Shown: piece by piece, positions 9,243-61,252 of the stretch
Position numbering within the stretch: position 1 is the stretch's first letter
How the letters are laid out: every line of letters starts with the position of its first letter
Position numbers and translations under genes: made by a program
Source of the DNA: Bacteroidota bacterium
Lineage (GTDB): Bacteria; Bacteroidota; Bacteroidia; UBA8524
Assembly (NCBI GenBank): GCA_008933805.1
Contig: WBUH01000004.1
Coordinates: 124,001 to 188,000, forward strand
Direction of reading: 5' to 3'
DNA: 64,000 nucleotides
Notes under the pieces: generated by a model
What the model was told of the DNA's origin: nothing
The model's database searches: none
Seen by the model: the letters and a program-made list of their open reading frames with translations, nothing else

Positions 9243-12200
9243 ATGGGTTCGCCAAAAAATGTTGCTTTATTTGTGGTGTTGGGCTTCGTATTGCCCATAC
9301 TAGCCATAACTGTGCCCGATGCAAACCGCATATGGTTTGCAGGCGGAGAATATATTGATGCTGACAGCACCAAGAAAAAAGGGGGGCCGGGCGACAGCAC
9401 GGCCGGAGACAGTTCTAAACTGAAATACCCTATAAAGGATAAAAAGAACTTTGAAGATAAAGAGCCGAACGGACTTGATTTGCAAGACCCTTCTAACATT
9501 AAAAAAGAAGTGGTGTACGACTCGGCAACGGGACAGTACGTTGAGAAACAAACCATCGGCGGCGATGACTACAGGCTTCCTGAAACAAAAGACCTTGAGC
9601 AATATCTTGAAGAACGCCGCAAAAAAGAGAATCAAGACTATTTCCGCCAACGCTCAAAAGCCCAAAACTACGTACAAAGCAACGGTAACATTTTTGATAA
9701 ACTAAAAACCGGCCCTAAGATTATTGACCGTTTGTTTGGCAGCGGTTTGGTGGATTTGAGACCACAAGGTTCTGCCGAGATTATTTTCGGGTGGAACTTT
9801 AACGTGGTGCGTAACCCCGCATTTACCGTACGTCAGCAACGCAACGGGCAGTTTGATTTCCGCCAGAAAATACAGTTTAACTTAACAGGAACTATCGGCG
9901 ATCGTTTTAAAACTAATTGGCGCTACGATACCGAAGCCACCTTTGATTTTGATAACCAGATAAACCTTAACTGGGAAGGTAAAGAAGACGACATTATTAA
10001 AAACGTGCAGTTGGGTAACGTGAGCTTACCGCTTAACAGCAGTTTGATACAAGGCGGACAAAGTTTGTTTGGTGCTAAGTTGCAAATGCAGTTTGGCCGT
10101 TTGATGGTAACTACCATATTTACCCAACAACGCGGACAGACTACTGAAACTGAGGTAACAGGCGGCGCACAAGTAACCAATTTTGACATACAGGCTGATA
10201 ACTACGACGTAAACCGTCACTATTTTTTGAGCCAGTATTTTGCCAACAACTACGACCAATGGTGCAGCACCCCTGCATTTATTAATTCGCCTATACTAAT
10301 TACTAACGTTGAGGTGTGGGTTACCAACCGTACCGGTGTTTTTGAAAACACACGCGATGTATTAGGTTTTATGGATTTAGGTGAAGCTACCCCGTACAAC
10401 AACCAGTGGCTAAACCCTACCGCATCCATTAACCCTGATAACACATCAAATACATTGTACAGCACCATGCAGTTGCCGGCCAATGCGGCTGCCAGAGAAA
10501 GCAACGACGCGGTAAGCCATTTGCGCCAAACCATGGGTTTGAATCCAATACAGGATTTTCAGTTGTTGAACAACGCAAGGCAATTGGGTACTAATGAGTT
10601 TACGTTTAACCCCCGTTTGGGTTATATCTCTCTGAACCAACAGTTGAATAACGATGAGATACTTTCGGTAGCGTTTGAATATACCATGAACGGGCAAGTG
10701 TACAGGGTGGGTGAATTTGCCCGTCAGATACAATCGCCGGACCCTAACCAACCAAAAGTGTTGATGTTGAAAATGCTGAAAGGTAGTACCATTACTACCA
10801 ACCTGCCCATTTGGGATTTGATGATGAAAAACATCTACTCATTGGGTGCTTTCAGTGTTAAAAAAGACCAGTTTAAACTAAACGTAATCTACGCCGATGA
10901 CCCTACCGGTGCTGATTTGAACTATATCCCCGTATTGAAAGATGAGCCCAATTTTGCTACAGCTACACCGCTTATTTCAATACTTAACTGTGACAGGGTG
11001 AACCAGCAAAATGAGCCAACCCCTGATGGTATTTTCGACTTTCTTGACGGTATAACGATAAACGTAGCAACAGGCCGCATTATATTCCCCGTAAGGGAGC
11101 CCTTCGGGCGGTACTTGCGAACGAAGTTCACTCAACAGAAAAACGCCGATTATTATGCCTTTGATGCCTTGTACGACTCTACCAAATGGTTGGCACAACA
11201 AGAGGTGTTAAAAAACAAATTCTTCCTTCGCGGAAGTTATCAAGGCTCATCCAACTCCGAAATTTCACTGAATGCCATCAACGTACCCAAAGGGTCGGTG
11301 CGGGTAACCGCCAACGGTACCCTACTTACTGAAGGTACGGATTATATCGTTGATTATACTGTTGGTCGTGTTAAAATATTAAATACAGGTATCCTTAACT
11401 CGGGTGCGGTAATCAAAGTAACTTCTGAAAACAACAACCTTTTCAGCATACAGCAAAAAACCCTGATGGGTGCCCGCTTTGATTACAAAATTGATAAAGA
11501 CTTTATTGTAGGTGGTACGGTAATGCACTTGTACGAACGTCCCATCACCCCTAAAGTAAACATTGGTGAAGAACCTTTGCTTAATACCATTGTGGGTGTT
11601 GACGGTACAATACGCCGTGAATCACGCGGTTTGACCCGTTTAATTGACCGTTTACCATTTATTAGTACTAAAGAGCCTTCAAACTTTCAGTTTAGTTTTG
11701 AAGGGGCTAAATTATTCCCTCACGACCCTAAAACCATCGGACAACGCGGTACTGCTTTTATAGATGACTTTGAAGCCAGCGAAACTCCGTTTGATTTGCG
11801 CTTAGGTACCGGTTGGTTTATTGCCAGTACACCCGAAGGCCAACCCGATTTGTTCCCCGAAACACAATCATCTTCAAACTCACTTGAGTTTGGACGAAAC
11901 CGTGCCCGCTTGGCTTGGTACTCTTTGGATAACATTTTCCTTAGTGAGCTTACCACCATTAGCCCTCCTACCCCATCCAACCTGCGCGATGCTACTATAA
12001 TGTCAAACCATTATACAAGGCAGGTAAACCAAACCGAGGTATTCCCCAACCGTCAACTGCAACAAGGAGTACCTTCCAACTTGCCTACGTTTGACCTTGC
12101 CTACTATCCATATAAACCCGGCCCTTATAACTACTCTGTATCGAACCTGAATGCACAAGGCGAAATGGCCAACCCCAAAAACAGCTGGGGGGGTATTATG

Positions 12201-15200
12201 CGTCGTATCGACCAGAACGACTTTGAGGCTGCCAACATTGATTATGTAGAGATTTGGATGATGGACCCTTTCCTAACAGGGTCAAACGGAACCATACAAG
12301 ACGGTAAGTTTAACTCGAACAACCTTTCGGGTGGTTCGCTATACTTAAATCTTGGTTCAGTATCAGAAGATGTGTTGCGCGATACCCGTAAGAGTTTTGA
12401 AAACGGACTACCCAAACCCAATACCCCGCTCCCGTTGATTGATACTACAGCGTGGGCTATTGTTCCCAACGTTCCTGCCATTAACAATGCCTTTGATGCC
12501 GACCCTGATGTGCGTGATGTACAAGACGTGGGGCTAGACGGTATGACCGATGCAACTGAACGTGTAATATATGCATTGTATTTAGATAGTATGCGTACCG
12601 TGCACGGTGCTTCATCAGCCGCATATCTAAACGCTCTTGAAGACCCTGCTCGTGATAATTATAAATTCCATAGCAGCGGTTCTTTTGATGCCCAAAGCTT
12701 GGGTATTTTGCAACGTCACCAGCAAATAAACGGCCAAGAAGGTAACTCAAAACCTGCTACGTTCAGGCCTGACGGTTATCCTGTAACCCGCACCAACCAA
12801 CCCGACGACGAGGATATTAACCGCGATTTCAGCTTAAACATTACTGAAGAATACTACCAGTATAAAGTTGATTTGAAACCCGGCTCATTGGTGGTGGGTA
12901 AAAACTATGTGACCGATAGCGCATCTGTACCTGTAACATTAGCCAACGGACAAGTAGAGCAGGTAACCTGGTACCAATTGCGTATTCCTATTAACTCTTA
13001 CAGCCGCAAAGTGGGCAATATCAGCGATTTTAAATCCATCCGTTTTGCGCGTTTATTTCTTAAAGATTTTGACCAACCCGTTGTATTGCGTTTTGCACAA
13101 ATGCAACTGGTACGTGCCGATTGGAGGCGTTATACCAAGCCGCTTAGCGTAGGTGTGCCAAACCCTCCCGGTTCGCCCGGAGATAACACCACCTTCTCGG
13201 TATCTACTGTAAATATTGAAGAAAACGGTACCCGTGTACCTGTAAACTATGTATTACCTCCCGGTTTCTTCCGTGAGTTGGATGTGACTACTCCTAACAA
13301 CGTACAACAAAACGAGCAGTCGCTATCGGTACGTTTTTGTAACCTGAAAGACGGAGATGCCCGCGGAGTATTTAAAACCACCCGTTTTGATATTCGTAAC
13401 TACAAACGCTTACGCATGTTTGTGCATGCTGAAGGTGAAGACAATAACCTTAGAAACGGTGATGTAAAGGCCTTTATACGTTTGGGTACTGACCTTGAAA
13501 ATAACTATTACGAATATGAATTGCCTTTGCTGGTAACACCTAATAACAGCCGTGATGCCCAACAGGTATGGCCCAGCGAAAACGAAATAAATATTGCCCT
13601 TGAAGAGTTTTATCTGGCCAAACAATTGCGCGAAAATGCTAAAGCCCCGCTAACACAGGATTTTGTGTATGATATGGGCGGCGGTAAGCGTATTACCCTA
13701 AAAGGTTTGCCTGATATGAGCAACGTGCGGGTAATTATGATGGGTGTGCGCAACCCTTTGAAAAATGATAACCCCGGCGCGGATGACGGTTTAGAAAAAT
13801 GTGGTGAGATTTGGTTTAACGAATTGCGTGTGGTTGAATTTAACAACCAAGGCGGTGAAGCAGCTACTGCAAGGTTAGTAACCAAACTGGCCGATTTAGG
13901 TACCTTTACCATATCGGGTAACTACCAATCAATAGGTTGGGGTGGTATTGATAAGAAGTTGAACGACCGTAGCCTGAACGAGATTTTCTTGTACGATATG
14001 CAAACCTCGTTGGAGTTGGGTAAATTCTTCCCCGCCAAGTGGGGTATTACTGTTCCCTTCTTTATGCAACGCGGCGAGCAGTTTATCCGCCCTAAATACA
14101 ACCCGCTAAACCCTGATATTCTTTTAAGCACTACCCTGCGTACTGCACAAACCGAAGAGCAAAAACAAGAGATTTTAAATGCCGCTGAGGATTACACCTC
14201 AAGGCGCAGCTATAACTTTACCAACGTGCGCAAAAACCGCACGGGCGGAGGTACTGCCAAACTGTGGGACATTGAAAACATTAACGGTAGTTTCTCGTTC
14301 CAAGAAATATTCAGGCGCAACCAGCAAATTGCTGCCAGCTTGCAACGTACTTGGCGCGGTAGTGTAGGTTACACTTTTGCTACAGCAGCTAAAAGCATTG
14401 AACCCTTTAAGAAAATTAAAGGCGGTAAATACATGCAATTGGTGCGTGATTTTAACTTCACCCTTTACCCGCAAAGTTTCTCGGTAAGGGCGGATGTTGA
14501 CCGTTATTATGCACGTTTGATAAACCGTAACAACGACGGCCCGTTGACTATCGTGCCCATTTTGTACGATAAGAACTTTACCATGAACCGCGTGTATGAT
14601 ATGCGGTGGGATTTGACAAAATCATTGAAAATTGATTACCAGTCTACCGCCAATGCGCGTATTGATGAACCTGTGGGCCGTATTGATAAGAACGAAGACC
14701 CCAGCAAGGTGGATACGATTCAAAACAATTTAATTGGCTTGGGGCGTACTACTAACTTTACCCAAGTAACCAACGTAAACTATACGCTTCCGCTTGCTAA
14801 ATTGCCTTTAACAGACTGGATTACTGCAAGTACGCGTTATAGTGCTAACTATGGTTGGACGACCGCCCCTCCTGCTACATCGTTTTTGGGTAATACCATT
14901 CAAAACTCACAAAACTACTCGTACACCGCGCAGTTTAATATGATGAACTTGTATAACAAGTTCCCCGCTTTGAGACGTATCAACCAAAACCAGCCTAAAC
15001 AATCAAAGGCTGAGCAAAAAACCGATACGGAAGAAGAAGAGGGTGAAGGCGAAGACAAAGACAAGAAAAAGAAGAAAAAGAAAAAAGAGGAATCTCCCCT
15101 TTCAGGCTTTGGTACTGCTGTAGCCAAAACGTTGATGATGCTTAAAAATGCATCGGTTAACTATACTTCTACCAAAGGTACTACGCTGCCCGGTTTCAGG

Positions 15201-16457
15201 CACACGCCTTTGTATGCCGGTAATGATGCCGAACGCAATGCACCCGGTTGGGATTTTGTATTCGGTAGCCAAGACCCTGAAGTACGCTACCGCATGGCAC
15301 GCGAAGGATTTTTGAGTATTGATACCCAACAAAACCAATACTTTATACAAACCAGCAAACAAGAGTTTAGCGCTAATGCTACCTTAGAACCTATAAAAGA
15401 TTTTAGGGTTGAATTACGTTTTATACGCAGCCATACCCAAAACATGCAGAGTGTATTTAGGTATGATGAGGCTAGCGATGGTTTCCGCGATTACGGTTTC
15501 CAAGAACAGGGAAGTTTCCAAGTAGGTATCTCAACCTTGCGTACTGCATTAGAGAAGAAGTTTATTAATACCAGCTCGCCTTCGTTTGACCAGATGTTGA
15601 ACAACCGATTTATTATTGCTCAACGTCTTGCCAATGAAAACCCCCGTTCTAAAGGAACATCGCAAACCGGTTTCCCCGAAGGGTACACCAATAAAAATCA
15701 AGACGTGTTGATTTCGTCGTTCTTGTCTGCTTACACCGGCAAAAACGCATCCGACCAAAACCTTGACTTGTTCCCTAAAATGCCGTTCCCTTCTATCCGT
15801 GTTAACTACAATGGTTTAAGCCGATTGAAAGCCGTGAAGAAGTTTGCCAGCAGCATTACTCTTTCATCATCATACAGCTCTACTTACAGTGTACCCCAAT
15901 ACACTACCTTGCTAAGCCGTACTGATAGTGTGAACCCGCTTGACAGTAACTTCTATCCTAAATACGAAATACGTTCGGTAACCATTAACGAAAGCTTTAA
16001 CCCGCTGATTCGTATCGACATTAACTTTATCAATAACGTTACTGCCAATTTTGAATACAAATCATCGCGCACACTGGCTCTTTCGCTATCTAACTATAGC
16101 TTGAGCGAAACCCGCAACGTTGAGTTTGTAATTGGTTTGGGTTACCGTGCTAAAGAGATTTACCTGCCGTTTAAAATAGGTGGCCGCAAACCATTCCTTA
16201 AAAATGATTTGAACATCCGTATTGATTTCTCAATCCGTGATGTGGCTACTATGCGTCGCGACTTACAAAACCTTGTTACCACACCCACACAAGGCCAACG
16301 CATCTTGGCTATTAAACCACAAATTGATTATATGCTGAACGAGAAGCTGAACCTACGCTTCTACTACGACCGTCGTGTTACCACCCCTGCTACTTCAAAC
16401 GCCTTCCCAACGGCTATTACGCAAGGGGGTATATCACTACGTTATACACTGCAATAG
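9243..16457 (+). CDS. sprA: cell-surface protein SprA, outer-membrane translocon of the type IX secretion system
   Basis: 2404 residues, almost exactly the length of Flavobacterium SprA. It has an N-terminal signal/hydrophobic segment (NVALFVVLGFVLPILAI), a charged linker to about residue 150, and then a very long sequence of beta-strands with the family blocks RLFGSGLVDLRPQGSAEI, FGWNFNVVRNP and YARLINRNN-type barrel strands up to the aromatic C-terminus GGISLRYTLQ. SprA forms the giant single-polypeptide barrel through which type IX cargo and gliding adhesins leave the cell. An unusual acidic-then-basic tract (EEEEGEGEDKD then about ten Lys) lies at about residues 1925-1952. Follows ruvA by 95 bp. 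Confidence 0.96.
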   Translation: MGSPKNVALFVVLGFVLPILAITVPDANRIWFAGGEYIDADSTKKKGGPGDSTAGDSSKLKYPIKDKKNFEDKEPNGLDLQDPSNIKKEVVYDSATGQYVEKQTIGGDDYRLPETKDLEQYLEERRKKENQDYFRQRSKAQNYVQSNGNIFDKLKTGPKIIDRLFGSGLVDLRPQGSAEIIFGWNFNVVRNPAFTVRQQRNGQFDFRQKIQFNLTGTIGDRFKTNWRYDTEATFDFDNQINLNWEGKEDDIIKNVQLGNVSLPLNSSLIQGGQSLFGAKLQMQFGRLMVTTIFTQQRGQTTETEVTGGAQVTNFDIQADNYDVNRHYFLSQYFANNYDQWCSTPAFINSPILITNVEVWVTNRTGVFENTRDVLGFMDLGEATPYNNQWLNPTASINPDNTSNTLYSTMQLPANAAARESNDAVSHLRQTMGLNPIQDFQLLNNARQLGTNEFTFNPRLGYISLNQQLNNDEILSVAFEYTMNGQVYRVGEFARQIQSPDPNQPKVLMLKMLKGSTITTNLPIWDLMMKNIYSLGAFSVKKDQFKLNVIYADDPTGADLNYIPVLKDEPNFATATPLISILNCDRVNQQNEPTPDGIFDFLDGITINVATGRIIFPVREPFGRYLRTKFTQQKNADYYAFDALYDSTKWLAQQEVLKNKFFLRGSYQGSSNSEISLNAINVPKGSVRVTANGTLLTEGTDYIVDYTVGRVKILNTGILNSGAVIKVTSENNNLFSIQQKTLMGARFDYKIDKDFIVGGTVMHLYERPITPKVNIGEEPLLNTIVGVDGTIRRESRGLTRLIDRLPFISTKEPSNFQFSFEGAKLFPHDPKTIGQRGTAFIDDFEASETPFDLRLGTGWFIASTPEGQPDLFPETQSSSNSLEFGRNRARLAWYSLDNIFLSELTTISPPTPSNLRDATIMSNHYTRQVNQTEVFPNRQLQQGVPSNLPTFDLAYYPYKPGPYNYSVSNLNAQGEMANPKNSWGGIMRRIDQNDFEAANIDYVEIWMMDPFLTGSNGTIQDGKFNSNNLSGGSLYLNLGSVSEDVLRDTRKSFENGLPKPNTPLPLIDTTAWAIVPNVPAINNAFDADPDVRDVQDVGLDGMTDATERVIYALYLDSMRTVHGASSAAYLNALEDPARDNYKFHSSGSFDAQSLGILQRHQQINGQEGNSKPATFRPDGYPVTRTNQPDDEDINRDFSLNITEEYYQYKVDLKPGSLVVGKNYVTDSASVPVTLANGQVEQVTWYQLRIPINSYSRKVGNISDFKSIRFARLFLKDFDQPVVLRFAQMQLVRADWRRYTKPLSVGVPNPPGSPGDNTTFSVSTVNIEENGTRVPVNYVLPPGFFRELDVTTPNNVQQNEQSLSVRFCNLKDGDARGVFKTTRFDIRNYKRLRMFVHAEGEDNNLRNGDVKAFIRLGTDLENNYYEYELPLLVTPNNSRDAQQVWPSENEINIALEEFYLAKQLRENAKAPLTQDFVYDMGGGKRITLKGLPDMSNVRVIMMGVRNPLKNDNPGADDGLEKCGEIWFNELRVVEFNNQGGEAATARLVTKLADLGTFTISGNYQSIGWGGIDKKLNDRSLNEIFLYDMQTSLELGKFFPAKWGITVPFFMQRGEQFIRPKYNPLNPDILLSTTLRTAQTEEQKQEILNAAEDYTSRRSYNFTNVRKNRTGGGTAKLWDIENINGSFSFQEIFRRNQQIAASLQRTWRGSVGYTFATAAKSIEPFKKIKGGKYMQLVRDFNFTLYPQSFSVRADVDRYYARLINRNNDGPLTIVPILYDKNFTMNRVYDMRWDLTKSLKIDYQSTANARIDEPVGRIDKNEDPSKVDTIQNNLIGLGRTTNFTQVTNVNYTLPLAKLPLTDWITASTRYSANYGWTTAPPATSFLGNTIQNSQNYSYTAQFNMMNLYNKFPALRRINQNQPKQSKAEQKTDTEEEEGEGEDKDKKKKKKKKEESPLSGFGTAVAKTLMMLKNASVNYTSTKGTTLPGFRHTPLYAGNDAERNAPGWDFVFGSQDPEVRYRMAREGFLSIDTQQNQYFIQTSKQEFSANATLEPIKDFRVELRFIRSHTQNMQSVFRYDEASDGFRDYGFQEQGSFQVGISTLRTALEKKFINTSSPSFDQMLNNRFIIAQRLANENPRSKGTSQTGFPEGYTNKNQDVLISSFLSAYTGKNASDQNLDLFPKMPFPSIRVNYNGLSRLKAVKKFASSITLSSSYSSTYSVPQYTTLLSRTDSVNPLDSNFYPKYEIRSVTINESFNPLIRIDINFINNVTANFEYKSSRTLALSLSNYSLSETRNVEFVIGLGYRAKEIYLPFKIGGRKPFLKNDLNIRIDFSIRDVATMRRDLQNLVTTPTQGQRILAIKPQIDYMLNEKLNLRFYYDRRVTTPATSNAFPTAITQGGISLRYTLQ

Positions 16458-59694: not shown

Positions 59695-60075
59695 ATGGCA
59701 AAAAAGTTACTTGCTGTAGATGACGAAAAGTCGATACTGATGATTCTGAACCACGTTTTCGGAAAAAAATACGAGGTGGTGCAGAAAACCAATGCAAAGG
59801 ATGCACTTGAGTGGATGCAGCAGGGTAATATTCCCGACGTAATTATAGCTGATATGAATATGCCTGAAATGAGCGGTTTGGACTTTATACACCAAATACG
59901 TTCAAGCGGCTTTTTCAGAGAAATTCCGTTGGTAATGCTTTCAGGTAACGAGAGTACCGCTGATAAAATAAAATGCTTGAAAGCGGGTGCCGACGATTAT
60001 ATGGTGAAGCCTTTTAATCCCGAAGAATTAGAAGCCCGCATAGAAAATATTTTCCGTAGGATAAAGAATGACTAA
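59695..60075 (+). CDS. single-domain response regulator (CheY-like)
   Basis: 126 residues, receiver domain only: acidic pocket LAVDDEKS, phospho-acceptor Asp in DVIIADMNMPEMSG (about 53), Ser in VMLSGNES and Lys in DYMVKPFNPEELE. No output domain is present, so it must act through a protein partner. Its stop overlaps the next gene, a receiver-fused sugar transferase, by 8 bp, which makes that enzyme the obvious candidate. The cognate kinase is not in the window. Confidence 0.93.
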   Translation: MAKKLLAVDDEKSILMILNHVFGKKYEVVQKTNAKDALEWMQQGNIPDVIIADMNMPEMSGLDFIHQIRSSGFFREIPLVMLSGNESTADKIKCLKAGADDYMVKPFNPEELEARIENIFRRIKND

Positions 60076-61252
60076 GCCCGACGTGAATACTCTACCCCGT
60101 ATTGCCCTTATTCATCCCGACCTTGCTTATGCCGAAAATATGGTGGAGCGGTTTAAGGATAAATACGAGATAGCCATTTTTAAAAACGGGTTTACCTTTT
60201 TTGAGTGGCTTACCCCTGCCGAAAAGTTTGGTTTGCTGTTGGCCTATGGTCCTGTAAACGGCCCCAACACTGCCGGCTTGCAAATGCAGCTTAGGGCTTC
60301 ACACCAACTTACCAATGTACCGATGGCAGTAGTGGTTGACAAAATCAACTCTACAGTTCGCAAAGAGGCTTTAGAGGCAGGAATTGCCGAGCTTTTTGAT
60401 ACAAAAACTACTGACGATGAGTTTGCCCTGCGTGCGGATTACTTAATTGCCAACCCGCCGATAGCCCCCGGAAAAGAGAAAAAACTCCCTGCAATACCAG
60501 AATATTCAATGCCTTGGAACAAAAGGGCGTTTGATATTTTCTTCTCTTCGTTAGCATTATTAATGCTTTCGCCGTTGTTTTTACTAGTTGCCCTTGCGGT
60601 GCGATTAGAATCTAAAGGCCCTGTGTTTTATTACTCGCTAAGGGTGGGTACAGGTTATAATATTTTCAGGTTTTACAAATTCCGCAGTATGTACACCAAT
60701 GCAGATGCGCGACTTAAGGACTTGAAACACCTGAACCAATATCAAAACAAACCCGAAGCAGAACAAAAAGAAAGCAGCGCTCCCCAAAAACAGGTAGCTG
60801 ATAAAGAAAAACTACTGTTGTATGCCGATAACAAGGTAATGACAGAGGACGAGTATAAGCAGTACCGCCTGCAAAAAGACGGCAGCACGTTTATTAAGAT
60901 TAAAGACGACCCCCGCGTAACTAAAGTGGGTAAGTTTATACGCAATACCAGTATTGATGAACTGCCCCAGTTGTGGAACGTGCTAAAAGGCGATATGAGT
61001 ATTGTGGGCAACCGTCCGCTACCCATGTATGAGGCTGAGAAGCTGACTACCGACCGCTTTGCACTGCGTTTTATGGCTCCTGCGGGTATTACAGGACTTT
61101 GGCAGGTGACCAAACGCGGTAAAAAAGGCGAAATGAGCGAAGAAGAGCGCATTGGCCTTGATAACGACTATGCCCGCAACTACTCGCTATGGTTTGATAT
61201 CAAACTGATACTAAAAACCATCCCCGCTCTTTTCCAAAAAGAGAACGTATAG
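60068..61252 (+). CDS. sugar transferase (PglC/WcaJ-type) with N-terminal receiver-like domain
   Basis: 394 residues. Residues 1-135 look like a degenerate receiver: PRIALIHPDLAYAENMVERF, a LLLAYGPVNG strand where the phospho-acceptor Asp should be, and MAVVVDKINSTVRKEALEAG. From 150 on it is a polyprenyl-phosphate sugar-1-phosphate transferase: KRAFDIFFSSLALLMLSPLF (membrane helix), FYKFRSMYTNAD, a linker insert of about 45 residues (228-272), then KDDPRVTKVGKFIRNTSIDE, LPQLWNVLKGDMSIVGNRPL and GITGLWQVTKRG. VGNRP replaces the usual VGPRP. It starts exopolysaccharide or O-glycan synthesis at the inner membrane. Confidence 0.88.
   Translation: MTKPDVNTLPRIALIHPDLAYAENMVERFKDKYEIAIFKNGFTFFEWLTPAEKFGLLLAYGPVNGPNTAGLQMQLRASHQLTNVPMAVVVDKINSTVRKEALEAGIAELFDTKTTDDEFALRADYLIANPPIAPGKEKKLPAIPEYSMPWNKRAFDIFFSSLALLMLSPLFLLVALAVRLESKGPVFYYSLRVGTGYNIFRFYKFRSMYTNADARLKDLKHLNQYQNKPEAEQKESSAPQKQVADKEKLLLYADNKVMTEDEYKQYRLQKDGSTFIKIKDDPRVTKVGKFIRNTSIDELPQLWNVLKGDMSIVGNRPLPMYEAEKLTTDRFALRFMAPAGITGLWQVTKRGKKGEMSEEERIGLDNDYARNYSLWFDIKLILKTIPALFQKENV

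Follow-up and report, generated by a model that had tools for sequence, protein, structure and literature searches.

A lone response regulator paired with a pseudo-receiver phosphoglycosyl transferase in Bacteroidota, and its possible control of polysaccharide initiation by protein contact

The regulator and transferase genes

The window analyzed here is a stretch of 64,000 nucleotides from a Bacteroidota bacterium (contig WBUH01000004.1). Its last 5 kb contain a two-gene unit on the + strand, in which the gene for a single-domain response regulator (59695-60075) is followed by that for a monotopic phosphoglycosyl transferase (PGT) with an N-terminal pseudo-receiver (60068-61252). The coordinates, the strand and the 8-bp gene overlap (60068-60075, + strand) reported in the initial annotation are borne out by the sequence; the PGT start lies inside the 3' end of the regulator gene, which suggests translational coupling of the two. 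Both flanking genes are on the opposite strand and unrelated, encoding an L-threonylcarbamoyladenylate synthase upstream and an unassigned protein of 342 aa downstream. Within the window, no kinase or polysaccharide genes adjoin the pair, which stands alone there; we count this against the contact mechanism discussed below. A promoter scan found 3 elements, no more than the 3.4 expected from shuffles, and 4 terminator-like elements were found compared to 2.1 expected. An anti-phage role of the pair was rejected, since PADLOC gave no match. Elsewhere in the window an open frame of 2404 residues is located at 9243-16454 (+).

The regulator is a CheY-like protein of 126 aa with an OmpR/PhoB-type receiver (PF00072, E 6.2e-28; 59695-60075, +), and NCBIfam matches it best to the receiver portion of PhoB. 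All residues for phosphorylation are present, as had been noted earlier: the acidic pair D9/D10, the phospho-acceptor D53 (codon 59851-59853, +; an aspartate in 152 of the 156 partner regulators), S83 and K105. That the regulator can be phosphorylated is supported by these residues. It consists of the receiver only, and a reading as transcription factor was rejected because Pfam detects no output domain.

The PGT has 394 aa and matches PF02397 over residues 152-389 (E 2.4e-61; 206.8 bits against a Pfam cut-off of 27). Its catalytic domain, residues 150-394 (60515-61249, +), has PglC (PDB 8e37) as best structural match. We mapped onto it the list of monotopic PGT features (re-entrant helix with D-x12-P, Asp-Glu dyad, Lys, two Arg) given in PMC12802240. 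The re-entrant helix (150-181) with D156-x12-P169, K204, R292, the D297-E298 dyad and R316 do not vary among the 79 aligned relatives, and the enzyme is therefore expected to be catalytically active; a broken or truncated gene is ruled out by the open frame together with these residues. Catalytic fold and residues are common to PglC, which has neither an N-terminal receiver-like domain nor the insert described below. Assignment to the large monotopic PGTs (the class of WbaP, WcaJ and EpsZ) was rejected, since the AlphaFold model contains neither a four-helix transmembrane bundle nor a cytoplasmic DUF. Residues 1-149 of that model form one (beta-alpha)5 domain plus linker, and the full-length Foldseek match to WbaP reaches a TM of only 0.37.

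The insert of about 45 residues reported for the catalytic domain is real and comprises 49 residues (226-274; 60743-60889, +). It is located between NQY and FIKIKDDPR, on the way from the KFRSM/NQY region to the catalytic dyad. Among 178 relatives, 121 have an insert with a CxxC...C...C motif, 43 a long insert without it and 14 almost none. The window PGT is one of the 43, the motif having been lost in its lineage. The four-cysteine motif, placed in the active-site loop, resembles a small zinc site and may bind metal.

A receiver fold without its phosphorylation site

A Pfam search returned no match on residues 1-150 of the PGT, and PF00072 does not match the N-terminus of the window protein at E<0.1. 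AlphaFold (79 sequences) nevertheless predicts a complete (beta-alpha)5 fold at residues 11-128 (60098-60451, +) with a block pLDDT of 90-98, in the order E11-15, H19-28, E34-38, H41-47, E56-60, H69-77, E86-89, H95-104, E108-110 and H116-128. In a Foldseek search receivers follow directly after PglC and WbaP, with PhoB 1zes at a TMt of 0.85 and an rmsd of 2.4 over 119 columns. PF00072 at E<0.1 matches 34 of the 79 aligned proteins, 11 of which have no N-terminal domain (best E 1.5e-15). A profile of the partner regulators matches 133 of 160 N-termini at E<=1e-3 (160 sequences), among them that of the window PGT (E 8.7e-8, Z=160). The N-terminal domain of the PGT is a receiver by descent. A structure prediction lacking a receiver fold had been named as evidence against the initial reading; since AlphaFold gives the (beta-alpha)5 fold and Foldseek finds receivers, this objection falls.

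The absence of the acceptor aspartate, also claimed before, is confirmed by alignment, which places Tyr60 at this position. In addition, the beta1 pair contains no acid and Thr112 takes the place of the lysine; the domain is thus a pseudo-receiver or aspartate-less receiver. The acceptor position varies among 156 relatives (Glu in 35, Gln in 33, Tyr in 21, Asp in 20, Asn in 17 and another residue in the remainder), and the phosphorylation triad is kept in 151 of 156 partner regulators but in only 1 of 156 pseudo-receivers.

A different part of the domain has been retained. In activated OmpR/PhoB receivers, an Asp of beta5 pairs with an Arg of alpha5 across the alpha4-beta5-alpha5 interface (as stated in passages of PMC4773095 and PMC2586830); in KdpE these are Asp97 and Arg111 (PMC4773095, same passages). 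Their counterparts are D101 and R115 in the regulator and E108 (D/E) and R122 (R/K) in the pseudo-receiver, where R98 and E118 of this face are present as well. Only two of 125 pseudo-receiver positions are more conserved than 108 and 122, which rank third and fourth; the acceptor comes 41st and the position of the lysine 124th. An acid and a base occupy 108 and 122 in 139 of 156 pseudo-receivers, compared to 80 for the next best column pair of equal spacing. In a small control, none of the 12 readable among 13 other receivers of the loci has Arg at the position equivalent to 122. The loss of the phosphosite and the retention of the charge pair indicate that the pseudo-receiver gave up the chemistry of the switch but not the face for contact. 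The 17 of 156 pseudo-receivers without the charge pair count against the contact mechanism.

The retained face fits a heterodimer with the phosphorylated regulator, and also a homodimer of the PGT. Aspartate-less receivers of the RitR type likewise have a receiver fold without acceptor Asp and keep the dimer face, but carry a DNA-binding output instead of an enzyme; an adjacent partner regulator, as in the present family, was not found among the features that passages of PMC4395418 give for them.

Pairing of regulator and transferase across Bacteroidota

A profile (A1) built from 12 relatives detected members at E<=1e-40 in 65 of the 396 class genomes, at E<=1e-60 in 46 of the 392 phylum genomes and in 22 of 59, 60 of 300, 23 of 298 and 7 of 21 genomes of targeted orders. 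The loci fetched are part of the profile matches (a second copy in genome G083, for example, was left out), and before the counts were made, rows scoring <200 against the profile were removed, as were those nearly identical to another row (sharing the last 150 residues). This yielded 178 distinct PGT members, of which 160 have the N-terminal domain (330 aa or more). A single-domain regulator is encoded directly upstream of the PGT in 157 of these 160. Pairing was scored by script as a same-strand regulator of <200 aa within 600 bp (156 of 160); the four remaining rows were inspected by eye, and locus L283 was added on this basis. The gaps between the genes in the 156 relatives are mostly -8 to +20 bp. 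No such neighbour was found at 96 other PF02397 loci, some of which offer little upstream DNA. The search for the gene pair in other genomes suggested by the initial annotation was thus positive, and a chance neighbourhood was rejected on the basis of these counts. Judged by gene order, the regulator-PGT pair is a Bacteroidota-wide module. A tree of 75 of the 178 members and 12 other PGTs as outgroup, from which close copies and six rows without anchor motif were left out, places all members in one clade apart from the others (SH-aLRT 100).

Neighbours on both sides vary between families and the pair itself is constant. Of 64 loci, 50 were scanned for the protein encoded directly upstream of the regulator (50 of 62 upstream proteins); it is a receiver protein in 18, a histidine kinase in 8, a sigma-54 activator in 8 and an Hpt protein in 5. 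The protein encoded directly downstream of the PGT, scanned in 60 of 64 loci (60 of 63 downstream proteins), is a TolC-like outer membrane efflux protein in 24, a GT2 glycosyltransferase in 9 and a MatE protein in 5. The TolC/OEP-like protein following the PGT is half-size, for example in L152, L167, L174, L336 (5808-6593), L338, L339 and L340. At several loci that were read, a long hypothetical or Wzc-like protein and then an O-antigen-ligase-like protein come after it; the arrangement looks as if the TolC-like protein may replace Wza in export. In the window genome, the window PGT is the single PF02397 protein found, and a Wza/Wzc/NeuB/NeuC cluster is located on another contig than the pair. 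This cluster (L332, 522-9115) also encodes a TviB-like protein and has no PF02397 gene of its own. A WecA-like PF00953 protein is present besides MraY, which weakens the suggestion that the window PGT may be the only possible initiator of this genome.

The pairing could reflect mere co-transcription, the regulator serving as a phosphate sink or acting on another protein such as a kinase or transcription factor. The other regulators and sigma-54 activators just upstream in several families (18 and 8 of 50) would agree with shared expression, and the interaction of regulator and PGT is one that we infer. Passages of PMC10434189 report that iron limitation raises both BT0523 and BT0524 of Bacteroides thetaiotaomicron about two-fold, as would be the case if they formed a transcription unit. 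We nevertheless consider this explanation quite unlikely, since the pair stays together, with gaps mostly <20 bp, while the flanking genes change, since in one member an intact receiver is part of the PGT chain itself, and since none of the 96 control loci has such a neighbour.

The fused receiver belongs to one of the three exceptions among the 160 loci. In L238 the upstream region is off the contig end, in L203 a histidine kinase is encoded in the regulator's place, and in L241 (1498-2628, -) a PGT of the family is joined to a receiver that is intact and can apparently be phosphorylated, without a separate regulator. A deltaproteobacterial PGT (L048, 3521-4594) is also fused to a receiver.

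Eighteen of the 178 members have no N-terminal domain. Seven of these keep the regulator (in one case 482 bp off), some of the others running off the contig, and the pseudo-receiver therefore need not be the sole contact. Five such forms are rows of the tree (L213, L216, L217, L225 and L286). In L213, L217 and L225, which have no pseudo-receiver, a hybrid kinase is encoded just upstream of the regulator, an arrangement in favour of a second contact that may lie on the catalytic portion of the PGT. A clade of L218, L220 and L222, nested among paired forms, has neither pseudo-receiver nor regulator. An independent-pairs test of N-terminal domain against regulator found 1 pair only on starred branches and is underpowered.

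The regulator might accordingly touch the catalytic domain or the active-site insert, with the pseudo-receiver as a constitutive dimerisation or membrane-orientation module. The five tree rows with a regulator alone, three of them with the hybrid kinase, speak for this. So do published descriptions, since EpsW binds an EpsZ for which the relevant passages of PMC12802240 give no pseudo-receiver, and since aspartate-less receivers often retain the dimer face and may be constitutive, according to sections of PMC4395418. We rate this alternative as unlikely, because the regulator accompanies 157 of 160 members with the N-terminal domain versus 7 of 18 without it and because both are missing together in the L218/L220/L222 clade.

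The pair is also present in the gut species Bacteroides finegoldii, Parabacteroides distasonis and Phocaeicola massiliensis; the pseudo-receivers of all three have no charge pair at 108/122. The P. distasonis locus encodes, in this order, the regulator, the sugar transferase, a TolC family protein, a hypothetical protein, an O-antigen ligase and a GT2 protein; in B. finegoldii the regulator and sugar transferase are followed by GT2 and an acyltransferase. The genes around the B. finegoldii pair (trp genes, a hemerythrin protein, flavodoxin) are ordered as BT0515-BT0533 of B. thetaiotaomicron, from which we infer that BT0524-BT0523 would be the pair in this species. Among PubMed Central open-licence papers, only passing lines on BT0523-BT0524 were found to touch on the Bacteroidota pair; the portions of PMC10434189 concerned mention the two genes only as iron- and colitis-responsive. 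Three records (NZ_OY725918, NZ_OY725779 and OY725990) are labelled plasmids; NZ_OY725918 has trp and purine genes beside the pair and may be a chromosomal piece.

Possible control by contact and its relation to known systems

The initial annotation proposed that the phosphorylated regulator controls the PGT by binding the pseudo-receiver. The lone regulator would be phosphorylated on Asp53 by a histidine kinase or an Hpt protein whose gene lies elsewhere in the genome, and the alpha4-beta5-alpha5 face of the regulator would then dock on the matching face of the pseudo-receiver fused to the PGT. Docking would alter how the PGT associates or what conformation it takes, and thereby switch the transfer of sugar-1-phosphate to undecaprenyl phosphate on (or off); this transfer presumably initiates a surface polysaccharide. 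Control would be exerted by protein contact, with no transcriptional output.

We consider this contact control through the pseudo-receiver moderately likely, the comparisons supporting the proposal in part. The proposal gains from the pairing (157/160, versus 0 of 96 control loci), the signalling genes upstream and polysaccharide genes downstream at other loci, the regulator triad (151/156), the dimer face (139/156), the missing output domain, the L241 fusion that dispenses with a separate regulator, the joint loss in L218, L220 and L222 and the principle of EpsW-EpsZ as laid out in parts of PMC12802240. It is weakened by the 7 of 18 short PGTs with a regulator only and by the gut relatives without charge pair. 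Neither of two computational approaches to the contact lent it support. Mean-field DCA of 156 concatenated regulator-PGT pairs (effective number about 61 to 102) recovered some plausible contacts within the regulator; between the proteins, scores reached noise and alpha4-beta5-alpha5 was not favoured. The pair of a close relative was also modelled by read-through as one chain, from a shallow alignment with a short linker and with neither phosphate nor a second copy; the pTM was 0.43 with no confident arrangement, versus 0.69 when the PGT was modelled by itself, a result that if anything speaks against the contact.

The sign of the effect is a question separate from that of contact versus co-transcription, and it is not readable from sequence. 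The pseudo-receiver could be inhibitory by default, the unphosphorylated regulator holding the PGT and phosphorylation releasing it; a Glu or Gln in place of the acceptor, as in 68 of 156 relatives, could lock the pseudo-receiver in one state. This variant appears very unlikely to us, as EpsW~P activates (PMC12802240) and as the conserved face is that of activated OmpR/PhoB receivers (PMC2586830).

In Myxococcus xanthus, the phosphorylated lone regulator EpsW stimulates the initiating PGT EpsZ by contact (mBio 2025; portions of PMC12802240). The same portions suggest that the principle may extend beyond myxobacteria and cite receiver-PGT fusions; the survey in that paper concerns myxobacteria and its main text contains no word beginning with 'bacteroid'. 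As in EpsW-EpsZ, a lone single-domain regulator is encoded with an initiating monotopic PGT. EpsZ belongs to the large PGTs, having four transmembrane helices and a DUF on the cytoplasmic side, and these portions describe no pseudo-receiver for it, whereas the Bacteroidota PGT has neither transmembrane bundle nor DUF, carries a degenerate receiver at its N-terminus and is encoded adjacent to the regulator (157/160). By its AlphaFold model, the window PGT is not a large PGT whose DUF lacks the beta-hairpin, the type controlled in EpsW-EpsZ. Small monotopic PGTs fused to receiver domains were reported by O'Toole et al. 2021 (as cited in passages of PMC12802240). L241 and L048 resemble these, while the main Bacteroidota group combines a dead fused receiver with a live regulator next door.

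Among PubMed Central open-licence papers, we did not find this architecture described, with no transmembrane bundle, a dead receiver as candidate dock, an adjacent live regulator and a cysteine insert. In PleD of Caulobacter, a live receiver and a degenerate receiver adaptor precede a diguanylate cyclase in one chain. Here, live and dead receivers are split over two genes and the enzyme is a PGT. The family could even be a phylum-wide class of PGTs with two signals, in which a PleD-like split switch and a four-cysteine insert sensing metal or redox would both gate the commitment of undecaprenyl phosphate; this is a speculative and unlikely extension, and if it were true, BT0524-BT0523 would be its representative in gut Bacteroides.

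Contact control of the initiating enzyme, at which bacteria commit scarce undecaprenyl phosphate to a coat, has so far been described for one myxobacterial pathway. The Bacteroidota set is far larger and differently built, has a defined candidate docking domain and reaches gut commensals, in which knock-outs and phospho-site mutants are practical. If the contact mechanism is true, the initiation of a polysaccharide pathway would be tied to a kinase signal through one receiver-receiver contact, which could be tested with two purified proteins.
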